This document shows positions 2,804-47,396 of a stretch of 64,000 bases of DNA, one piece after another. The translations under genes and the position numbers were made by a program. Position 1 is the first letter of the stretch, and every line of letters begins with the position of its first letter. The notes beneath the pieces were generated by a model. The model saw only the letters and a list, made by a program, of their open reading frames with translations. It ran no database searches and was not told the DNA's origin. The stretch spans positions 434,001 to 498,000 of the forward strand of contig PNMZ01000001.1 in NCBI GenBank assembly GCA_013823945.1. The letters are read 5' to 3'. Source of the DNA: a bacterium. GTDB taxonomy: Bacteria; Armatimonadota; Fimbriimonadia; Fimbriimonadales; Fimbriimonadaceae.

Positions 2804-4317
<1,514 letters not shown>

Positions 4318-37782: not shown

Positions 37783-37806
37783 GTGCATAATATTCAGTTA
37801 TGAACG
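37783..37806 (+). promoter_or_regulatory. argR promoter -10 with ARG-box-like half sites
   Basis: CATAAT (37786-37791) ends 8 bases before the argR ATG. It overlaps TGCAT-AAT-ATTCA and is followed by ATTCAGTTATGAAC, both resembling halves of an ARG box (TGAAT/ATTCA palindrome) but with imperfect spacing. Autoregulation by ArgR is plausible; the operator call is weak. Confidence 0.3.
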
Positions 37807-38231
37807 ACTCCCGAGAAGCCCGGCTCGATGCCATCCGCACCATCATCGCCGAAACTCCCATCCCCAATCAAGAGGAACTGATCAAAGCCCTGACCAACCT
37901 CGGCTACTCCGTAACCCAATCCAGCGTCAGCCGCGATCTCACCGATCTCCGCATCAATAAGTCCGGCGGATTCTATGTTCTCCCCGAAACCAACGCTATC
38001 CAACAGCTCGGCATCCTTCAAGCAATTCCCGCAGGACCTAACCTCCTCGTCCTTAAAACCGCCGTTGGCGCGGCGCCCCTTATTGGACTAAAAATCGACC
38101 AACTAAGACTGAGTCAAATCATCGGCACCATCTCCGGTGACGACACCATCTTTATCGCTACCGCCCAACACACGGATCACCCCGTCATCCTCAAAGCCCT
38201 CGGCCTCACGGCCTATGGAGCGAACAAATGA
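37800..38231 (+). CDS. argR: Arginine repressor ArgR
   Basis: 143 residues. The N-terminal winged helix (EELIKALTNLGYSVTQSSVS, RDLTDLRINK) binds ARG boxes; the C-terminal domain has the arginine-binding and hexamer segment GTISGDDTIFIA. Residue pattern and length are normal for the family. Its stop overlaps the argG start (ATGA), so the repressor is the first gene of the operon it presumably controls. Confidence 0.95.
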   Translation: MNDSREARLDAIRTIIAETPIPNQEELIKALTNLGYSVTQSSVSRDLTDLRINKSGGFYVLPETNAIQQLGILQAIPAGPNLLVLKTAVGAAPLIGLKIDQLRLSQIIGTISGDDTIFIATAQHTDHPVILKALGLTAYGANK

Positions 38232-39436
38232 GCCAACCCCAAGTCGCCCTCGCCTTTTCCGGCGGACTAGATACCTGCTGGTGCATCCCGATCCTCAAAT
38301 CCCAAGGCTACGACGTCACCACTGTGACCGTCGACGTCGGTGGTTTTTCCCAAGAAGAACTCAAAGAAATAGCCCACCGCAGCCAACATCTCGGTGCCAT
38401 CAAACACATCACCATTCCAGCCGCCCAGATGTTCTTTCATGAAATTCTTCGCCACCTCATCGCCGGAAATGTCCTCCGTGGAAACCTTTATCCTCTCTGT
38501 GTCGGAGCCGAGCGCTCACTCCAAGCCCGCGAAACTGCCAAAATCGCCACCCAAGTCGGTGCCGAAGCCGTCGCTCACGGCTGCACTGCCGCCGGAAACG
38601 ATCAAATCCGATTCGAAATCGCCCTACGCACCCTCGCCCCGAATCTAAAAATACTTGCCCCCGTCCGCGACCAAGCCCCATCTCGGCCCGACCAACTCGC
38701 CCTCCTCAAAGCCAACAACCTCGATTTTCCCGCGAACAAAGCTGCTTATAGCGTCAATTCTGGACTCTGGGGCGTCACCATCGGCGGCGAAGAAACCACC
38801 GGAACCGAATACACCATCCCCGAAGACCAATGGCTCCGCACCAAGGACGCATTCTCAGAACCCCAACCCTCTGAAGAAATCTCTATCACCTTCACCCACG
38901 GCATCCCTACTCACCTCAATTCGACTTCGCTTGACCCTGTCACCCTCATCACCAAACTCGATCAAACCGCCTCAAAATACGGCATCGGACGAGGAATCCA
39001 TCTCGGTGAAACCATCCTCGGAATCAAGGGCCGCGTGGCATTCGAGGCCCCCGCCGCAACCGTCCTCATCCAGGCTCACCGCGAACTGGAAAAGCTCACC
39101 CTCACCAAACGCCAAATCGCCCTCAAAGATCAAGTTGCCGCTCTCTATGGCGAATGGGTTCACGAAGGACTCTTCACAGAACCAGCTTCCCGCATGGCTG
39201 AATCACTGTTTAAAGAATCTCAGAAATCCGTAACTGGCGATGTTCACCTCACGCTCCACCCCGGCCACGCCTTTGTCACCGGAGTCATCAGCCCTCGTTC
39301 CCTCCACGCCGCGTCACGGGCTGTTTATGGGGAATCCGTTGGCGAATGGACTCCCGATGATGCCAAAGGATTCGCCCGCCTCTACGGCCTTGCCGGAATC
39401 CTCCACGCTCGTGCCAACCCCGAGGTGAACCCATGA
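38228..39436 (+). CDS. argG: Argininosuccinate synthase
   Basis: Joins citrulline and aspartate with ATP. 402 residues with the ATP pyrophosphatase loop AFSGGLDTCWC, the TVDVGGFSQEEL segment, AHGCTAAGNDQIRFE and SVNSGLWGVTIGG. Wording of several segments (GNVLRGNLYPLCVGAERS) is closer to the Bacteroidetes-type ArgG than to the E. coli or Bacillus type, as far as I can judge by eye. It overlaps both neighbours by four bases. Confidence 0.95.
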   Translation: MSQPQVALAFSGGLDTCWCIPILKSQGYDVTTVTVDVGGFSQEELKEIAHRSQHLGAIKHITIPAAQMFFHEILRHLIAGNVLRGNLYPLCVGAERSLQARETAKIATQVGAEAVAHGCTAAGNDQIRFEIALRTLAPNLKILAPVRDQAPSRPDQLALLKANNLDFPANKAAYSVNSGLWGVTIGGEETTGTEYTIPEDQWLRTKDAFSEPQPSEEISITFTHGIPTHLNSTSLDPVTLITKLDQTASKYGIGRGIHLGETILGIKGRVAFEAPAATVLIQAHRELEKLTLTKRQIALKDQVAALYGEWVHEGLFTEPASRMAESLFKESQKSVTGDVHLTLHPGHAFVTGVISPRSLHAASRAVYGESVGEWTPDDAKGFARLYGLAGILHARANPEVNP

Positions 39437-40491
39437 GAGCCCTCATCCTCGACAAAATCGCCAGCGTCACCCAAAATGCCGCCCTCCGCCGAGATGTCCG
39501 AATCAGCGACAAATACCCCTGCAGAGAAGGCGACATCATCGCCGTCCGCATCCTCACAAGCAAGGCCGCCTACAACGCCCTCGAACTCACCACTGGTCGA
39601 ATGTCCACTCTTAAACAGGGCGACATCATTGCCGGAGCACTGGGGCATCGAAATGCTCTTCAAGGCTACGCCGGACATATCCCACATTCTCTCGAAACTG
39701 GAGACACCATAAACCTCCTCAATATGGGCGGAGTCCTCGGCGTTTGCACCAGTCACTCTCCCCTCGTTGGCCCACCCCATCAATGCGAAGTCCTCGGGAG
39801 CATTCTCAGCTTCCCCACCCTCAACTCCCGCCAAGGCGTTCCCGCCAACATCGCCACAAATGCTCCCCCGCTGCAATCCAAACTTCAAAGCAATCTCCCC
39901 CCCATCATCGCCGTCATCGGTACTTGTATGAATTCCGGCAAAACTGAAGCCTGCCTCACAATCATCCAACAACTCGTTCGTCGGGGACTCAAAGTTTCTG
40001 CCGCCAAAACCACCGGCGTCTCCCTCCGCCGCGACATTCTCGCCATGGAGGATGCCGGAGCCACCGAGATCGCCATTTTCACCGACCTTGGCGTTGTCAC
40101 AACGCAAGCGAACAACGCCGCTAACCTCACCAAAACCCTGGTCAACCAACTCGCTCAAGGCTCTCCCAATGTCATCATCCTTGAACTCGGAGACGGACTT
40201 CTCGGCGAATATGGAGTCGCCGCAATTTTGAGCGATCCACAAATCGCCGCATCCCTTACCAGTATCGTCCTGGCCGCCTCCGACCCAGTTGGAGCGTGGG
40301 GTGCAGTCGAACTGCTCAACCACCGACACCAGATCACCCCCACCCTCATCACCGGACCTGCCACCGATAACACGGCCGGAAGCGAAGTCATTTATCGTGA
40401 AACGCAAATTCCCGGGCTGAACGCTCGCCACAACCCCCTTGAAATCGCTGACCTACTGACCAAAACCCTCACCCCAAAAACTCATGTCTAA
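39433..40491 (+). CDS. P-loop protein of unknown function inside the arginine operon (DUF1611-like?)
   Basis: 352 residues, not firmly recognised. An N-terminal domain (1 to about 150) is followed by a SIMIBI-type P-loop domain: Walker A GTCMNSGKT at 163-171, then KVSAAKTTGVSLRRDILAME, an IFTDLGVVTT segment and ILELGDGLLGEYG, ending with DPVGAWGAVELL. The pattern recalls DUF1611 and dethiobiotin-synthetase-like proteins. It overlaps argG by 4 and argC by 8 bases, so it is co-translated with arginine enzymes. No N-acylglutamate synthase (argA/argJ/GNAT) lies in the operon; this protein is a candidate for that missing step or for a regulatory or carboxylate-activating role. Function is not established by the sequence. 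Confidence 0.8.
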   Translation: MRALILDKIASVTQNAALRRDVRISDKYPCREGDIIAVRILTSKAAYNALELTTGRMSTLKQGDIIAGALGHRNALQGYAGHIPHSLETGDTINLLNMGGVLGVCTSHSPLVGPPHQCEVLGSILSFPTLNSRQGVPANIATNAPPLQSKLQSNLPPIIAVIGTCMNSGKTEACLTIIQQLVRRGLKVSAAKTTGVSLRRDILAMEDAGATEIAIFTDLGVVTTQANNAANLTKTLVNQLAQGSPNVIILELGDGLLGEYGVAAILSDPQIAASLTSIVLAASDPVGAWGAVELLNHRHQITPTLITGPATDNTAGSEVIYRETQIPGLNARHNPLEIADLLTKTLTPKTHV

Positions 40492-41533
40492 ACACATCCC
40501 CGCCATCGTCCTCGGTAGCACTGGCTACGTCGCTGCAGAAATCATAGGACTCCTTCTGAATCATCCCAGCTTCCGCATCGAGGCGGCAATCAGCACTTCC
40601 CAAGCCGGTAACCGGATTGACGAAATCTTCCCCCACCTCATCGGCCCCGCCGGAGACCTGACTTTCAAATCGCTCGACCAAATTACCGATCTCCTCGCCT
40701 CGAAACGCCAAACCGCGATCTTCTCTGCCCTCCCCCACGGCGAAACTGCCAGCTTCATACAAAACCTCCTCCAGCAATCTCAAACCAACGCCCAAATCGT
40801 CGACGTTTCCGCCGACTTCCGGTACCGCACTTCCGCCGAGTACGAAGCCGTCTACGGCAAACCTCACCCCGCACCCGACCTTCTCAACTCTTTCACATGT
40901 GCCCTCCCCGATATCACCCCCGCAACCCCCGATACCCACATCGCCCACCCGGGATGCTTTACAACTTGTGTGACTCTCCCTCTCGCCGGGCTCCTCGCCT
41001 GTGACCTCATCGAACCTCAAGTCAACGTTTCCGCTGTCACCGGATCAACTGGAGCCGGACGACAACCCGGAGTCGGCACCCACCACCCGCACCGACAAAG
41101 CTCGATGTGGGCCTATCAACCTCTCAACCACCGTCACAAACCAGAAATGGAAAATCTCGTCGCCCCCTGGGAGCCTAACGCACAAGTCGCTTTCGTTCCC
41201 CACTCGGGACCCTTTGCTCGAGGCATCCACGCCACGACCTTCGCTACCCTCAAGTCAAACTCTGACGCCGAAACCGTCGTATCCCAACTTCAAAATTTCT
41301 ATGGGCCTTCACCATTCATCCGCGTCGGTTCCAAAATGCCCGAGCTCAAATCAATCGTCGGTTCCAACCGTTGCCAAATCGGAATCGCAATTCATGGTCG
41401 ACAACTCGTCGCCACGAGCATCATCGATAACCTCGTCAAAGGTGCTGCCGGAGGTGCCGTCCAGTGGATGAACCGACTGTTCAGCCTCGAAGAATCGCAA
41501 GGCTTACTCAACGCCACTCCCGGCTGGATCTAA
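40484..41533 (+). CDS. argC: N-acetyl-gamma-glutamyl-phosphate reductase
   Basis: Reduces N-acyl-glutamyl phosphate to the semialdehyde with NADPH. 349 residues: Rossmann start AIVLGSTGYVAAEI, the active-site Cys in HPGCFTTCV (usually NPGC), VTGSTGAGRQPG and the catalytic His in FVPHSGPFARGIHAT. It overlaps the P-loop gene and precedes argF' by 3 bases. In the succinylated version of the pathway the same enzyme would handle N-succinyl substrates. Confidence 0.95.
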   Translation: MSKHIPAIVLGSTGYVAAEIIGLLLNHPSFRIEAAISTSQAGNRIDEIFPHLIGPAGDLTFKSLDQITDLLASKRQTAIFSALPHGETASFIQNLLQQSQTNAQIVDVSADFRYRTSAEYEAVYGKPHPAPDLLNSFTCALPDITPATPDTHIAHPGCFTTCVTLPLAGLLACDLIEPQVNVSAVTGSTGAGRQPGVGTHHPHRQSSMWAYQPLNHRHKPEMENLVAPWEPNAQVAFVPHSGPFARGIHATTFATLKSNSDAETVVSQLQNFYGPSPFIRVGSKMPELKSIVGSNRCQIGIAIHGRQLVATSIIDNLVKGAAGGAVQWMNRLFSLEESQGLLNATPGWI

Positions 41534-41536
41534 ACC

Positions 41537-42523
41537 ATGAACGACTTCCTCTCCCTTCGGACTCTCCCCCGCGATCAAGTTCAAAACCTTGTCAACCTCG
41601 CCCGAGAACTCAAAGCCAACCCCATCAACGACACTCTCAGAGGCAAAGTGGTCGGCCTCCTCTTCATGAATCCCAGCCTGCGCACGCTTGCCAGCTTCCA
41701 GGCCGGAATCGGTCAAATGGGTGGAACTAGCGTCGTGATCCAACCAGGCACCGGAACCTGGACTCTCGAAACCCGCGATGGCATCGTGATGGACGGCCCC
41801 GAAGTCGAACATATCCGCGAAGCCATCCCCGTTCTTGCATCCTATTGCGACATTCTTGGCATCCGTTCGTTCGCCAACCAAATCAACCTCGATGAAGACC
41901 TTGCTGATCATCTCATGCACAAGTTCGCCGACCTCTCCTCCAAGCCTCTCATCAACATGGAATCAGCGAGCGACCACCCATGCCAAGCCCTCGCCGATTG
42001 GCAAACCCTGGACGAACTCGATATTCCCGCCGACGGGAACTTTGTCCTGAGTTGGGCCTGGCACCCTAAACCTCTTCCGTACGCTGTACCACGCGCCGCC
42101 CTCACCATGGCCGCCCTCCGTGGAATGAACATCACGATCCATTCCCCCAAATCTCACCCCCTCCCCGATGAACTCGTCGCCGAAGCCAAAGCCCTCGGAG
42201 CAAAGTCCATCCGCAACACTCACACCGCAAACGAATCACTCGAAAACGCCCATGTTCTCTACTGCAAATCTTGGGTTGCTCCCCAAAACTACGGCGACCC
42301 AGAAGCGGAGATGCGCCTCCGGAAAAACCTCCGCGAATGGTGCGTCGCTGAATCCTGGTTTGAAACCGCTTGGTCTGACGCCAAATTCATGCACTGCCTT
42401 CCCGTTCGCCGCAACGTTAAAGTTGCCGACGAAATTCTCGATGGCCCTCGCTCCGTCGTCATCCATCAAGCCGAAAATCGACTTCACGCTCAAAAAGCCA
42501 TCCTCACAAACCTGATTAACTGA
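41537..42523 (+). CDS. argF': N-acylornithine carbamoyltransferase (N-succinylornithine type predicted)
   Basis: 328 residues. It is not a normal ornithine carbamoyltransferase: the carbamoyl-phosphate loop is FMNPSLRTLASFQ, and WAWHPKPLPYAVPRA, HPCQALADW and MHCLPVRRNVKVADE are those of the AOTCase/SOTCase branch. The residue that separates acetyl- from succinyl-ornithine users (Glu92 in Xanthomonas AOTCase, Pro90 in Bacteroides SOTCase, in MDGxxxEH) is Val90 here. Replacing that Glu with small or hydrophobic residues is reported to switch AOTCase to succinyl-ornithine, so N-succinylornithine is the predicted substrate. argB follows by one base. Confidence 0.9.
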   Translation: MNDFLSLRTLPRDQVQNLVNLARELKANPINDTLRGKVVGLLFMNPSLRTLASFQAGIGQMGGTSVVIQPGTGTWTLETRDGIVMDGPEVEHIREAIPVLASYCDILGIRSFANQINLDEDLADHLMHKFADLSSKPLINMESASDHPCQALADWQTLDELDIPADGNFVLSWAWHPKPLPYAVPRAALTMAALRGMNITIHSPKSHPLPDELVAEAKALGAKSIRNTHTANESLENAHVLYCKSWVAPQNYGDPEAEMRLRKNLREWCVAESWFETAWSDAKFMHCLPVRRNVKVADEILDGPRSVVIHQAENRLHAQKAILTNLIN

Positions 42524-42524
42524 C

Positions 42525-43397
42525 ATGCAATCCACTACCGTCCAAGCTCTGCGCCATGCCTTGCCCTATCTCGAGCATTACCGTGGCAAACTCTTCGTCA
42601 TCAAATGTGGCGGCGAAGCCCTCGAGCACCCTGCCCACCTCGCCAGCCTCATCGAACAAATCGCAGTCCTCCACCAACTTGGGATCCAAATTGCCCTTGT
42701 TCATGGTGGCGGCCCCCAAGCCACTCAACTCGCAAAGATATTAGGACGAGAGCCCACATTCGTCGACGGCCGCCGGGTCACGACCCCAGAAGCCCTCGAA
42801 TCCACAATTATGGCGATCAACGGCCTCGCTCAAGCCACCCTCCTCGCCGCCGCCCGCAAACAAAATCTCCCCGCGATTGGCCTATCCGGGATTGATCACG
42901 GAATCATTCAAGCCACAAAACGCCCACCTATCAAAACCAGCCTAGGCATCACCGACTTCGGTCTCGTCGGAGACATCCAAGCCGTGAACTGCGTACCACT
43001 CAAAAACCTCATCGCCAATCAAGCGATCCCCTTCATCAGCCCTATTTCCGCAGATTCAGAGGGCCAAATTCTCAACATCAACGCCGATGATGTCGCCGCG
43101 CAAATCGCCCTGGCTCTCGGTGCTACCAAACTCATTTTGATCACAACCCCCAGGGGGATACTGAGCGATCCCCAAGATCAAAACTCGCTGATTTCACAAC
43201 TCACCCTCTCTGAGCTTGACCATCTTCAACAGAGCGGAACAATCTCGACTGGCATGCTCCCCAAATCCAAGGCCATTCGTACCGCACTAGAAAACCGTGT
43301 CGAGCGCGTACACGTCATCAGCTACCAATTCCCCGACAGCATCCTCACCGAAGTCTTTACCAACGAAGGCTGCGGAACCCTCATCCTCAATGAATAG
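42525..43397 (+). CDS. argB: N-acetylglutamate kinase
   Basis: Phosphorylates N-acylglutamate. 290 residues of the amino-acid-kinase family: FVIKCGGEALEHP, IALVHGGGPQATQLA, GLSGIDHGIIQ, NINADDVAAQIALALGATKL and a C-terminal GCGTLILNE. Length suits the arginine-type NAGK. It follows argF' by one base and is separated from argE by about 100 bases that hold a GC-rich hairpin. If the pathway is succinylated it would act on N-succinylglutamate. Confidence 0.94.
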   Translation: MQSTTVQALRHALPYLEHYRGKLFVIKCGGEALEHPAHLASLIEQIAVLHQLGIQIALVHGGGPQATQLAKILGREPTFVDGRRVTTPEALESTIMAINGLAQATLLAAARKQNLPAIGLSGIDHGIIQATKRPPIKTSLGITDFGLVGDIQAVNCVPLKNLIANQAIPFISPISADSEGQILNINADDVAAQIALALGATKLILITTPRGILSDPQDQNSLISQLTLSELDHLQQSGTISTGMLPKSKAIRTALENRVERVHVISYQFPDSILTEVFTNEGCGTLILNE

Positions 43398-43500: not shown

Positions 43501-44550
43501 ATGACTAACCTCCTGAAACTCCTCGCAGACCTTATCGCAATCCCCTCAGTCTCCCACAACGAAACGGAAATCGCTAACTTCGTCTTCTTCTATCTCACTC
43601 AAAATGGCATAACCCCATCTCGAATCGGCAACAATATCATCGCCCAAACAAGCGACAAACCGCATCTCCTCCTCAATTCCCACCTCGACACCGTCCCCCC
43701 CAACGACGCCTGGACGAGACCCCCATGGGAACCCGCGCAAGAAGGCGACCATATCTTCGGCCTTGGTTCCAACGACGCAAAAGGTTGCGTTGCCGCCATG
43801 ATCACCGCCTTCATCGCCAATAAATCCAACCCCGGACTAGCTCTCCTCCTCAGTCCCGAAGAAGAAACCGGTGGTCAAGGCACAGAATTTGCCTGGCCCA
43901 TCCTCCGCGACGAACAAAACTGGAACCCCGGGGCCATCATCGTCGGTGAACCAACCGAACTCCAAATCGGCACCGTCCAACGCGGGCTGCTCCTCCTAGA
44001 CCTCGTCGCAAAAGGCCAAGCCAGCCACGCCGCGAACGCCAACCCGACCGGTGAAACAAATCCCATTTTCACCATTGCCCGTGACCTCGTCAAACTCCAA
44101 AACATCACCCTCACTCCTCACCCCGAACTTGGTCAGCCAACCATCCAACCCACCGTTCTTACCGGAGCCGAAGCCCGCAATCAAATTCCCGGCGAAGCCC
44201 GCGCCAGCCTCGATATCCGAACCGTTCCCATCGAAACCCACGCTGAAATCATCGCTCTCCTCGAAGAGACTCTTACCTCCGAAATCGAAGTTCGATCCCA
44301 ACGCCTCACGCCTTTCGCCTGCAACCCCAAAGCCAAAGTCATCCAAACCATCATGTCCCTCCTCCCGAAGTCCAAAACCTTCGCCAGCCGCACCATGTCT
44401 GACCAAGTCCATTTCACAGGATTCAACGCGGTCAAATTCGGCCCTGGTGTCTCCGCCAGATCCCACACTGCCGACGAATTTATCCTCGCTTCCGAACTCA
44501 TCGCCGGAGCACAAGCCTACGACCAAATCATCAAGGAATTCCTGTCATGA
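43501..44550 (+). CDS. argE: M20-family deacylase, ArgE-type (N-acyl-citrulline or N-acyl-ornithine deacylase)
   Basis: 349 residues. Metal and catalytic sites of the M20 peptidases are present: NSHLDTVPP, GLGSNDAKGCVAAMI, LSPEEETGGQG, IIVGEPTELQIG and HTADEFI. In a pathway with N-acylornithine carbamoyltransferase the substrate should be N-acetyl- or N-succinyl-citrulline, not acetylornithine. It overlaps argH by ATGA. LysK/DapE-like specificity is an alternative by family, but the operon argues for arginine. Confidence 0.92.
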   Translation: MTNLLKLLADLIAIPSVSHNETEIANFVFFYLTQNGITPSRIGNNIIAQTSDKPHLLLNSHLDTVPPNDAWTRPPWEPAQEGDHIFGLGSNDAKGCVAAMITAFIANKSNPGLALLLSPEEETGGQGTEFAWPILRDEQNWNPGAIIVGEPTELQIGTVQRGLLLLDLVAKGQASHAANANPTGETNPIFTIARDLVKLQNITLTPHPELGQPTIQPTVLTGAEARNQIPGEARASLDIRTVPIETHAEIIALLEETLTSEIEVRSQRLTPFACNPKAKVIQTIMSLLPKSKTFASRTMSDQVHFTGFNAVKFGPGVSARSHTADEFILASELIAGAQAYDQIIKEFLS

Positions 44551-45725
44551 ACAAAACGACTCGCCTCTGGGACAAGGGCCAACCCATCAACGACCAAATC
44601 CTCGCCTTCACCGTCGGCAACGACCCCATTCTTGACCAACGCCTCATCCCTTACGACATTACTGCCAGCATTGCCCACGCCCAAATGCTCGGCGAGCAAA
44701 ACCACCTCACCCAGGAAGAAGTTGAAAAACTCACCCAAGCCCTCGAAGAACTCCGAAGCGAAGACATCCAAATCTCCCGTGACGAAGAGGACTGCCACAC
44801 CGCAATCGAAAATCGCCTCACCCAAAAGCTTGGCGACCTCGGTGGCAAAATTCACCTCGGACGATCCCGCAACGACCAAGTTCTCACCGCTCTCCGCCTC
44901 TATTACCGTCAAGTGATTGTCGACATCCATTCCTATACAAAAGAGGCGATGGCAAGTCTAATTGAGCTCTCCCACAATCAAGGCGAGATCAAAATCCCTG
45001 GCTACACCCACCTCCAACAAGCAATGCCCTCCTCCGTTTCGCTCTGGGCAATGGGCTACACCGCCGAACTCAATCATTCCCTCAACACCTTCGCTGCCGC
45101 CGAACACCTCATCAGCCTCAACCCCTTAGGATCAGCCGCGGGCTTCGGCACCCCGGGACTCACTCTCAACCGTGAATCCACCACCAAAAAACTCGGATTC
45201 ACCCAAGCCCACGAACCCGTCACCGCCCCTCAACTCAGTCGAGGTAAAGCTGAATCCGCCCTCGCGTTCAGCCTGTGCCTCATCATGCAAGATCTCGGGC
45301 GACTCGCCGCCGATCTCTGTCTTTACAACTCCCAAGAATTCGCCATGGTCACCCTCGCAGACGACATCACTACCGGGTCAAGCATCATGCCCCAAAAACG
45401 CAATCCCGATGTCTTCGAACTCATCCGGGGCCACTCCGCCCAAGCTCCCGCCGAACTCCAAGCCATCCAGAACATCACGCTCAAAATGACCTCTGGCTAC
45501 CACCGCGACCTCCAACTCATCAAAGAACCCCTCTTCCGACTCATCGACCGCACCCACCAAACCCTTCAAATCACCACCTACGCCCTCACCCGGATCACAT
45601 TCAACGCTGAACGAGCGACTCAAATCACCGACCCCAGCATTCACGCCGCCGAAGCCGCATTCGCCCTCGTCCAAACCGAAAAAATCAGCTTCCGCGAGGC
45701 CTACCGCCGCATCGCTGCGAACTAA
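44547..45725 (+). CDS. argH: Argininosuccinate lyase
   Basis: Splits argininosuccinate to arginine and fumarate, the last step. 392 residues, somewhat shorter than the usual 450-460. Fumarase/aspartase-superfamily signatures are present: IHLGRSRNDQVLTALRL, GYTHLQQAMPSSV and the signature loop GSSIMPQKRNPD. It closes the operon; a convergent terminator separates it from rsr. The shorter length reflects a trimmed C-terminus rather than loss of active-site motifs. Confidence 0.95.
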   Translation: MNKTTRLWDKGQPINDQILAFTVGNDPILDQRLIPYDITASIAHAQMLGEQNHLTQEEVEKLTQALEELRSEDIQISRDEEDCHTAIENRLTQKLGDLGGKIHLGRSRNDQVLTALRLYYRQVIVDIHSYTKEAMASLIELSHNQGEIKIPGYTHLQQAMPSSVSLWAMGYTAELNHSLNTFAAAEHLISLNPLGSAAGFGTPGLTLNRESTTKKLGFTQAHEPVTAPQLSRGKAESALAFSLCLIMQDLGRLAADLCLYNSQEFAMVTLADDITTGSSIMPQKRNPDVFELIRGHSAQAPAELQAIQNITLKMTSGYHRDLQLIKEPLFRLIDRTHQTLQITTYALTRITFNAERATQITDPSIHAAEAAFALVQTEKISFREAYRRIAAN

Positions 45726-45806: not shown

Positions 45807-47396
45807 TTAGTCCGCCAGAAACTGGCGAATCAAACTCGGAACCGAAGCATCAAATCCCACTACATTGAGTGTGAGCGGATCACCCGGATCTCCAATTGTT
45901 GACCGCGTCGAAGCCATTGCGACAACAATCAACTTCGCCCGAGGATTTAACTTTTTCCGGTACTCCTTCATCGCTTGCGCCGGATGCTGACTTCCGTACC
46001 AGGTTTCTGAGTCTGTGTAGATCACAAACGCGTCCACCGCCAACTTCCGCTTCAACGCAAAGTGGATCGGAGCCGCACAGTCCGTTCCTCCGCCTCCGGT
46101 CTTCTCAAGAATCCCGACGACATGATCCAATCGCATTGAACGATTCAACTTCAGTTCATACGCCTTCGTGTCAAAAGCGATATGCGTAACCGATTCTTCT
46201 TGAGCCGAAGTCACGAGAGCCATCGCCGCACAAGCCTTTCGGCAGTCCAGCCCGGCAATTCCCGCAACCGACGTTCCGCACATCGATCCTGAAACGTCAA
46301 GCCCCAGCAACAAGCGACGGCCCGCTGATTCCAAGTTCTCGAACGAGTCGTAAAACGCACGGTCAAGCGCATCAACCACTCGTTGAACAGGCTTCCACGT
46401 TCCAGTTCCCCGGAACCCTCGCCCGCTCGAATATGTGTTCAAAGCCGCCAAAATGGTGATCGGATGAATCCGCGACTTCCGCAACCGCATCGGGTTCTCA
46501 AGCGCCGAAACAACCGTTTCAACTCCGTTCGAGTACCCCGAAAGGATGCCCTTACGCAACACGCCAAGCTTGGAAAGATTTCCCAAATTTCGCAGCATCG
46601 CCGTCAATGGCATATCATCCAACAAAGCTTCCCAAACCAGGGGCTCAGTCAACCATTCTGTCGGAACAGCTTCTCGCGGAATCCGATTCTCGCGAATCAA
46701 ACGACACGCTTCCGCTAGATCAGTTACTTCGTGCAAAGCCATCGCCGCCCGAACAATCGGAATCTCCAGATTCAACTCCTTAGCCGTTGCCCACTTGAAC
46801 AAAGCATTGTGCTCGTCCGACACCGCTACCGGGTGAGCGAGCCGCAGCAAGTCACGGTGACTCCAACCATTCCGAGACTGATACTTGATCAATCCGTAAG
46901 CCAAGGCCTCCGCAGATTGCGAGTTGTACCAATTTCCAATCGCCTTCCGCAGTCCGCGACCCCATCCTCGGAGAGAGTCACAAGCAGAAGCAAATGCAAA
47001 CAAGTGCGTTCCAGTTCGGCAAACAAGCGGTACGGCAACATAGGCTGCCTTCCGAGTCGGCTCATCCCCGTACGTTGTCGCCAACGCAAGAGCAAAAATC
47101 GCCGCATCGTTCTTCGGTGCCAGATTTTTCGTGCTGACTTCAATGATTCGCGATATTAACCGCAAACCATCTTCCTTGATTGCCTCGATCACGTTCTGGG
47201 CGTTCATCTCCGTCAAGGCCATGGCCCCAACGTAATAAGTACCTGTCTCGCTCCCAAGGATCAAGAAACGGTCAACGAGTTCCCATCGATCCACCGTCCA
47301 TCCAAAGCCACCTGCATGGTTCTTGGTCTGACCAGAACCTGCAATAGCTCGATTTTGACGGGTCTTATTCGATTGGAAGAGTTGTGTGTATTTCAT
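45807..47396 (-). CDS. rsr: Ro60 orthologue Rsr (TROVE ring plus vWA domain)
   Basis: 529 residues. The TROVE HEAT-repeat ring spans about 1-350 (NKTRQNRAIAGSGQTKNHAG at the start, GLIKYQSRNGWSHRDLLRL near 170). The vWA domain begins near 360 with the MIDAS motif DVSGS at 367-371 and later GGGGTD and YTDSETW. Bacterial Rsr binds Y RNA on the outside of its ring and works with exoribonucleases in rRNA maturation and RNA decay under stress. The ATG is preceded by AAGGAG. A run of Y-RNA-like units lies directly upstream on the same strand and apparently the same transcript. Confidence 0.96.
   Translation of the reverse strand: MKYTQLFQSNKTRQNRAIAGSGQTKNHAGGFGWTVDRWELVDRFLILGSETGTYYVGAMALTEMNAQNVIEAIKEDGLRLISRIIEVSTKNLAPKNDAAIFALALATTYGDEPTRKAAYVAVPLVCRTGTHLFAFASACDSLRGWGRGLRKAIGNWYNSQSAEALAYGLIKYQSRNGWSHRDLLRLAHPVAVSDEHNALFKWATAKELNLEIPIVRAAMALHEVTDLAEACRLIRENRIPREAVPTEWLTEPLVWEALLDDMPLTAMLRNLGNLSKLGVLRKGILSGYSNGVETVVSALENPMRLRKSRIHPITILAALNTYSSGRGFRGTGTWKPVQRVVDALDRAFYDSFENLESAGRRLLLGLDVSGSMCGTSVAGIAGLDCRKACAAMALVTSAQEESVTHIAFDTKAYELKLNRSMRLDHVVGILEKTGGGGTDCAAPIHFALKRKLAVDAFVIYTDSETWYGSQHPAQAMKEYRKKLNPRAKLIVVAMASTRSTIGDPGDPLTLNVVGFDASVPSLIRQFLAD

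Follow-up and report, generated by a model that had tools for sequence, protein, structure and literature searches.

A P-loop protein in the arginine operon of a Fimbriimonadaceae bacterium is a candidate for the missing N-acyl(succinyl)-L-glutamate synthase

Introduction

DgcN, a protein of the DUF1611 group, acetylates D-glutamate, and MobB is a GTP-binding P-loop adaptor of molybdopterin synthesis. DgcN is described as the key gene of a D-glutamate racemization pathway (PMC12363236). In Bacteroides, arginine synthesis runs through N-succinyl intermediates, with BT3761 proposed as its first enzyme (PMC7311316). The transcarbamylases that act on acylated intermediates carry diagnostic residues: the N-acetylornithine enzyme is marked by Glu92, Asn185 and Lys302, and the N-succinyl enzyme by A/S/P/V/Q at position 92, P at 185 and V/I/E at 302 (PMC4581275).

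We analysed a stretch of 64,000 nucleotides (called the window here) whose arginine operon contains a gene for a P-loop protein. Searching the open-access literature, preprints aside, we found no paper tying this P-loop family to arginine.

Results

The P-loop gene (called X here) lies in an operon of the order argR-argG-X-argC-argF'-argB-argE-argH (Table 1). It overlaps argG by 4 bases and argC by 8 bases; the first-pass annotation had reported these overlaps and the gene content of the operon, and the open reading frames together with NCBIfam searches bear it out on both. There are no argA, argJ or GNAT open reading frames in the arginine operon of the window. The same annotation had described argD as absent, which is correct for the operon and wrong for the genome, where two ArgD-like aminotransferases are found elsewhere (C4:121403, 394.6 bits with a cut-off of 410, and C2:209757, 347.5 bits). 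In many relatives, argC and argF' are separated by an aminotransferase-like ORF. In the genome of the window, step 1 is the sole arginine step with no operon candidate and for which no gene of a known family was found elsewhere.

Table 1. Features of the arginine operon and of the P-loop protein, in window coordinates.
Feature	Position	Strand	Basis or remark
argR, arginine repressor	37800..38231	+	NCBIfam match to the right family, below curated cut-off
argG, argininosuccinate synthase	38228..39436	+	NCBIfam above curated cut-off
X, candidate N-acyl(succinyl)-L-glutamate synthase	39433..40491	+	352 aa, unnamed P-loop family
X, N-terminal beta domain, residues 1-150	39433..39882	+	no credible PDB match
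X, C-terminal P-loop domain, from about residue 155	39895..40491	+	dethiobiotin synthetase / CTP synthase / DUF1611 fold group
X, Walker A GTCMNSGKT, residues 163-171	39919..39945	+	sequence, 95-sequence alignment
argC, N-acyl-gamma-glutamyl-phosphate reductase	40484..41533	+	NCBIfam above curated cut-off
argF', knotted acylornithine transcarbamylase (V92, P185, K302)	41537..42523	+	NCBIfam N-acetylornithine-type carbamoyltransferase above cut-off
argB, N-acylglutamate kinase, no fused acetyltransferase domain	42525..43397	+	NCBIfam above curated cut-off
argE-like M20 deacylase	43501..44550	+	best NCBIfam matches are succinyl-diaminopimelate desuccinylase models, sub-cut-off
argH, argininosuccinate lyase, 392 aa, no fused acetyltransferase domain	44547..45725	+	NCBIfam above cut-off

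Some features around the operon were noted on their own account. A Ro60/TROVE protein (45807-47396, minus strand; PF05731 and a Ro60 vWA domain) is encoded on the opposite strand directly after argH, and argH is likewise followed by a similar ORF in the close relative G007, a member of the Fimbriimonadaceae whose locus (L061) is 84% identical. Rfam detected no Y RNA in the window; its sole match above the gathering score is a full-length 16S rRNA gene (2804-4317, minus strand). The argE of another close relative, G006 (L023:12886-13931), is split into two frames of 67 and 283 residues by a frameshift or a sequencing error.

The conservation of gene order was followed in 99 operon loci (approximately 95 distinct), picked by similarity to the query protein and taken from 19 relatives and the best 80 of 551 matches in species genomes. 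argC is located directly 3' of the P-loop gene on the same strand in all 99, with a gap of −4 to 164 bases between the aligned parts, and argG directly 5' in 93. This linkage spans Armatimonadota, Acidobacteriota and Gammaproteobacteria. Loci that have no adjacent argG (e.g. L036, L039, L041) retain the P-loop gene with argC-argF'-argB, and in G001 and G002 the protein is only about 38% identical to that of the window, yet its gene heads argC-argF'-argB. Since the gene stays with these three even at such low identity, it associates with the acyl-intermediate genes and not with argG/argH. The median identity of the P-loop protein to a mostly gammaproteobacterial set is 51.7%, similar to the values for the enzymes argF' (50.9%) and argB (49.3%), and the pairwise distances of the P-loop protein correlate with those of argB (r=0.95), argF' (0.93) and argC (0.92). 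A homologue is present in 21 of 61 genomes (the window's own and 60 relatives), which, together with the argC adjacency in 99/99 loci, argues that the observation is not due to chance. Of 147 genomes sampled in the order of Peristeroidobacter, 116 have a match, a few of them to the paralogue only.

Across the same 61 genomes, the knotted acylornithine transcarbamylase (NF003384 above cut-off) was called in 19, and all 19 carry the P-loop gene (Fisher p=7e-14, shared ancestry ignored). ArgJ is present in 23 genomes, none of which is a carrier (Fisher p=3e-6, ancestry likewise ignored). Two carriers have no call for the knotted transcarbamylase: G029 is 72% complete and has argC adjacent to the P-loop gene at a contig end, and the homologue in G052 is a paralogue of 26% identity in another gene context. 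An ArgA or ArgJ elsewhere in the genome, which the first-pass annotation had set against its own proposal, was not found in carriers, many of which are metagenome assemblies of unknown completeness: ArgA reached its cut-off in 0/51 (what matched was either the kinase domain of ArgB or fragments of generic GNATs) and ArgJ was found in 0/37 further carriers. The P-loop gene is thus tied to the acyl-intermediate pathway in genomes where ArgA and ArgJ were not found. Neither ArgJ nor the P-loop protein is present in 17/61 genomes, so absence of the known enzymes alone proves little. Several genomes without both (G011, G023, G030, G040, G044, G046, G048 and G050) have an OTC-type transcarbamylase, and the clade therefore probably contains some other unrecognised first enzyme.

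The P-loop protein has no family above cut-off in Pfam or NCBIfam. Its sub-cut-off matches (MobB, DUF1611, CbiA) all span the P-loop region; the best in Pfam is MobB (PF03205), with E=1e-4 and residues 159-239 only. The DUF1611 model PF07755 gives E=0.011 and 15.6 bits compared with a cut-off of 25, again over the P-loop only; at E<=1 it matches 17 of 19 family members (best E=6e-5), and the N-terminal DUF1611 model PF17396 is absent from all 19. TIGR01890 (ArgA) and TIGR00120 (ArgJ) are not among the NCBIfam matches of the protein. For TIGR00347 (bioD) the window protein has no listed match, and one relative reaches 14 bits where the cut-off asks for 83. A PDB sequence search with the protein returned nothing, and a search with the family profile returned chance-level matches only.

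The AlphaFold2 model of the whole protein has a pLDDT of 92.4. The N-terminal domain modelled alone (pLDDT 91.9) is mostly beta, and this isolated model showed no credible match in the PDB (Foldseek best E 0.34, VIA best Z 3.3). No DUF1611 chain was found in this search, a result that by itself would not decide membership. VIA-align superposed the C-terminal domain on the DUF1611 proteins 2g0t (Z 17.4, 181 residues, rmsd 2.8) and 2obn (Z 16.4) and on DgcN (PDB ID: 7xrj; Z 15.3 over 182 residues). The P-loop domain matches CTP synthases and dethiobiotin synthetases equally well (Z 15-17).

The Walker A motif GTCMNSGKT pointed out in the first-pass annotation is intact. In the alignment of 95 sequences GK[ST] is invariant, with residue 171 always Thr or Ser, and a second lysine follows at +22 from the P-loop lysine in 95/95. 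G163, M166, G169, K170, K192, D201, D207, E251 and D254 are invariant or nearly so, and so are D284, D312, R56, R73, K8 and E51; R200 is found in 94. Our alignment places a lysine at +22 in dethiobiotin synthetase as well, and CTP synthase has its second lysine at the same spacing. The solved DgcN and the DUF1611 sequences have GKM and an alanine at +22. Judged by these residues, the P-loop protein resembles an ATP-using ligase more closely than it does a transferase of the DgcN type. The substrate site is probably formed with a contribution from the N-terminal beta domain.

Membership of the DUF1611/DgcN family was rejected because the PF07755 score is below cut-off, the N-terminal domain is different, and GK[ST] plus lysine takes the place of GKM plus alanine. 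The resemblance to DUF1611 in the first-pass annotation is thus reduced to a weak one in the P-loop alone, and the protein is only a distant P-loop relative of DUF1611/DgcN. True DUF1611 (DgcN-like) genes above cut-off occur as separate genes in 46/61 genomes (L141-L160) and are absent from the window's own.

Paralogues score 137-195 bits with the family profile. Identity is approximately 26-30% in the two cases measured, one being 30% over 305 residues, and GKT with a lysine at +22 is present in 12/12 paralogues examined. In Gammaproteobacteria, some are neighbours of genes for an M20 peptidase and a flavin-reductase-like protein (L253, L255, L257, L258, L259, L261), forming a second unnamed conserved cluster. 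Others belong to clusters that also encode an ABC exporter, a hydrolase-like and a porin-like protein (L256, L260, L262), and the Armatimonadota paralogue (G052, L042:632-1714) adjoins an ABC-exporter-like ORF. The arginine clade is one branch of this unnamed P-loop family. Relatives remote from arginine genes, another point raised against the original proposal, do exist as diverged paralogues in these two other contexts; the orthologues stay with arginine genes.

The nature of the acyl group was approached through the transcarbamylase, by comparing 90 sequences from operon loci, among them that of the window. At position 92 they have A (64), V (17), Q (6), T (2) or P (1), without a single Glu; 87 of them have Pro at position 185; and at position 302, V is found in 51, K in 18, A in 13 and E in 6. 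The window's enzyme, with V, P and K, has two of the three N-succinyl-type residues, and its Lys at 302 is AOTCase-like. The succinyl-type residues and an M20 deacylase that is nearest, below cut-off, to succinyl-diaminopimelate desuccinylase models point to N-succinyl intermediates like those of Bacteroides. Judged by these sequence features, the acyl group is probably succinyl rather than acetyl.

A conventional synthase was also searched for. No GNAT lies inside the operon in the window. Nor was a fused N-acetylglutamate synthase (NAGS) seen: the ArgA model matches only the kinase part of ArgB, and argH is of normal length. The window's genome has 18 GNAT-like ORFs; of the 10 scanned against NCBIfam none reached the NAGS cut-off, and L043 is RimI. 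Five of these GNATs have counterparts in five distant carriers (RimI, L044, L052, L054 and L058). L044 is present in 46/61 genomes, including every carrier among the relatives, and L058 in 35/61. Both also occur in ArgJ genomes and are therefore not tied to the route of the P-loop gene, though either might be a synthase. A generic GNAT follows argH in at least one gammaproteobacterial locus (L134).

Discussion

The gene linkage, the phylogenetic profile and the failure to find ArgA or ArgJ together suggest that the P-loop protein is the missing N-acylglutamate synthase. We put the probability that it is a non-GNAT, non-ArgJ N-acyl(succinyl)-L-glutamate synthase, possibly ATP-dependent, at about 0.64. 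This value covers the assignment to step 1; the chemistry is graded lower. The first-pass annotation had proposed N-acetyl- or N-succinyl-glutamate as the product; its idea of a synthase gains from context, profile and the missing ArgA/ArgJ, and of its two acyl groups succinyl is now favoured over acetyl. In the proposed mechanism, the protein would acylate L-glutamate to give the first arginine intermediate, most likely N-succinyl-glutamate. ATP would activate the acyl donor as an acyl phosphate, which glutamate would then attack; an acyl-CoA donor is the alternative. The enzymes encoded next to it, namely ArgB, ArgC, the transcarbamylase and the M20 deacylase, would use the product. Tentatively, we propose that the protein could represent a new class, an ATP-dependent N-succinyl-L-glutamate synthetase with a dethiobiotin-synthetase-like fold and an unmatched beta domain, distributed over several phyla and forming a branch of a wider P-loop amide-forming family whose paralogues lie beside M20 amidohydrolases or ABC exporters.

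The same step could be catalyzed by a DgcN-like acyl-CoA-dependent transferase, in which the P-loop binds the phosphates of CoA and no ATP is used. This is a sub-case of the synthase assignment that differs in mechanism. DgcN, titled an N-acetyltransferase in its PDB entry, shares the fold of the P-loop domain, and the N-acylglutamate synthases already known use acyl-CoA (PMC4490483). However, that fold fits dethiobiotin synthetase and CTP synthase no worse, the N-terminal domain differs from that of DgcN, and GK[ST] with the +22 lysine in every sequence contrasts with GKM and alanine in DgcN/DUF1611. We give this transferase mechanism a fairly low probability. A more distant alternative is a regulatory or partner role for the protein, which would bind nucleotides as a flux sensor or adaptor, while an unrecognised GNAT elsewhere makes the N-acylglutamate. 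Each of the 18 GNAT-like ORFs is a potential cryptic synthase, no carrier among the relatives lacks L044, and MobB is the best Pfam match, though sub-threshold. Yet L044 and L058 are just as present in ArgJ genomes, none of the scanned GNATs reached the NAGS cut-off, the many invariant charged residues in both domains are enzyme-like, and at loci without an adjacent argR the gene still accompanies argC-argF'-argB. A regulator is thus unlikely. Least probable is an enzyme of another reaction linked to the route, such as a later ATP-dependent step on an acylated intermediate or a carbamoyl-phosphate-related step: several ATP-dependent activations of carboxylates would be compatible with a site like that of dethiobiotin synthetase, but every step except the first has operon genes or genome candidates.

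If confirmed, the synthase assignment would close a step-1 gap that recurs when amino acid prototrophy is predicted from genomes, and would do so for many of them (the 116 of the Peristeroidobacter order, along with Fimbriimonadaceae and some Acidobacteriota). The succinylated route, which is documented in Bacteroides, would then reach into further phyla, and a P-loop family covered by no Pfam or NCBIfam model would acquire a function. The assignment would also mean a non-homologous replacement of GNAT/ArgJ at the committed step, where donor and feedback control are possibly different.

Comparison with known systems

The C-terminal P-loop fold (VIA Z 15-17) and a GTxM....GK motif are common to the P-loop protein and DUF1611 (PF07755/PF17396; 7xrj, 2obn, 2g0t), and with DgcN it would, by analogy, share the N-acylation of a glutamate. 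Unlike DUF1611, it falls below the PF07755 cut-off, has no PF17396, and combines another N-terminal domain with an intact GK[ST] and second lysine. The similarity to MobB is weak and limited to the P-loop region, and both architecture and gene context differ. With ArgA, ArgJ and the Cabys_1732/BT3761 type the protein shares the predicted reaction, N-acylation of L-glutamate as arginine step 1. No sequence relation to ArgA or ArgJ was found, and the protein is neither an amino-acid kinase with an acetyltransferase nor an ArgJ. Compared with dethiobiotin synthetase and the synthetase domain of CTP synthase, it adds the N-terminal beta domain, sits in an arginine operon and has no significant family match, but it has their P-loop fold (Z about 16-17) and the Walker A motif with a lysine 22 residues on.
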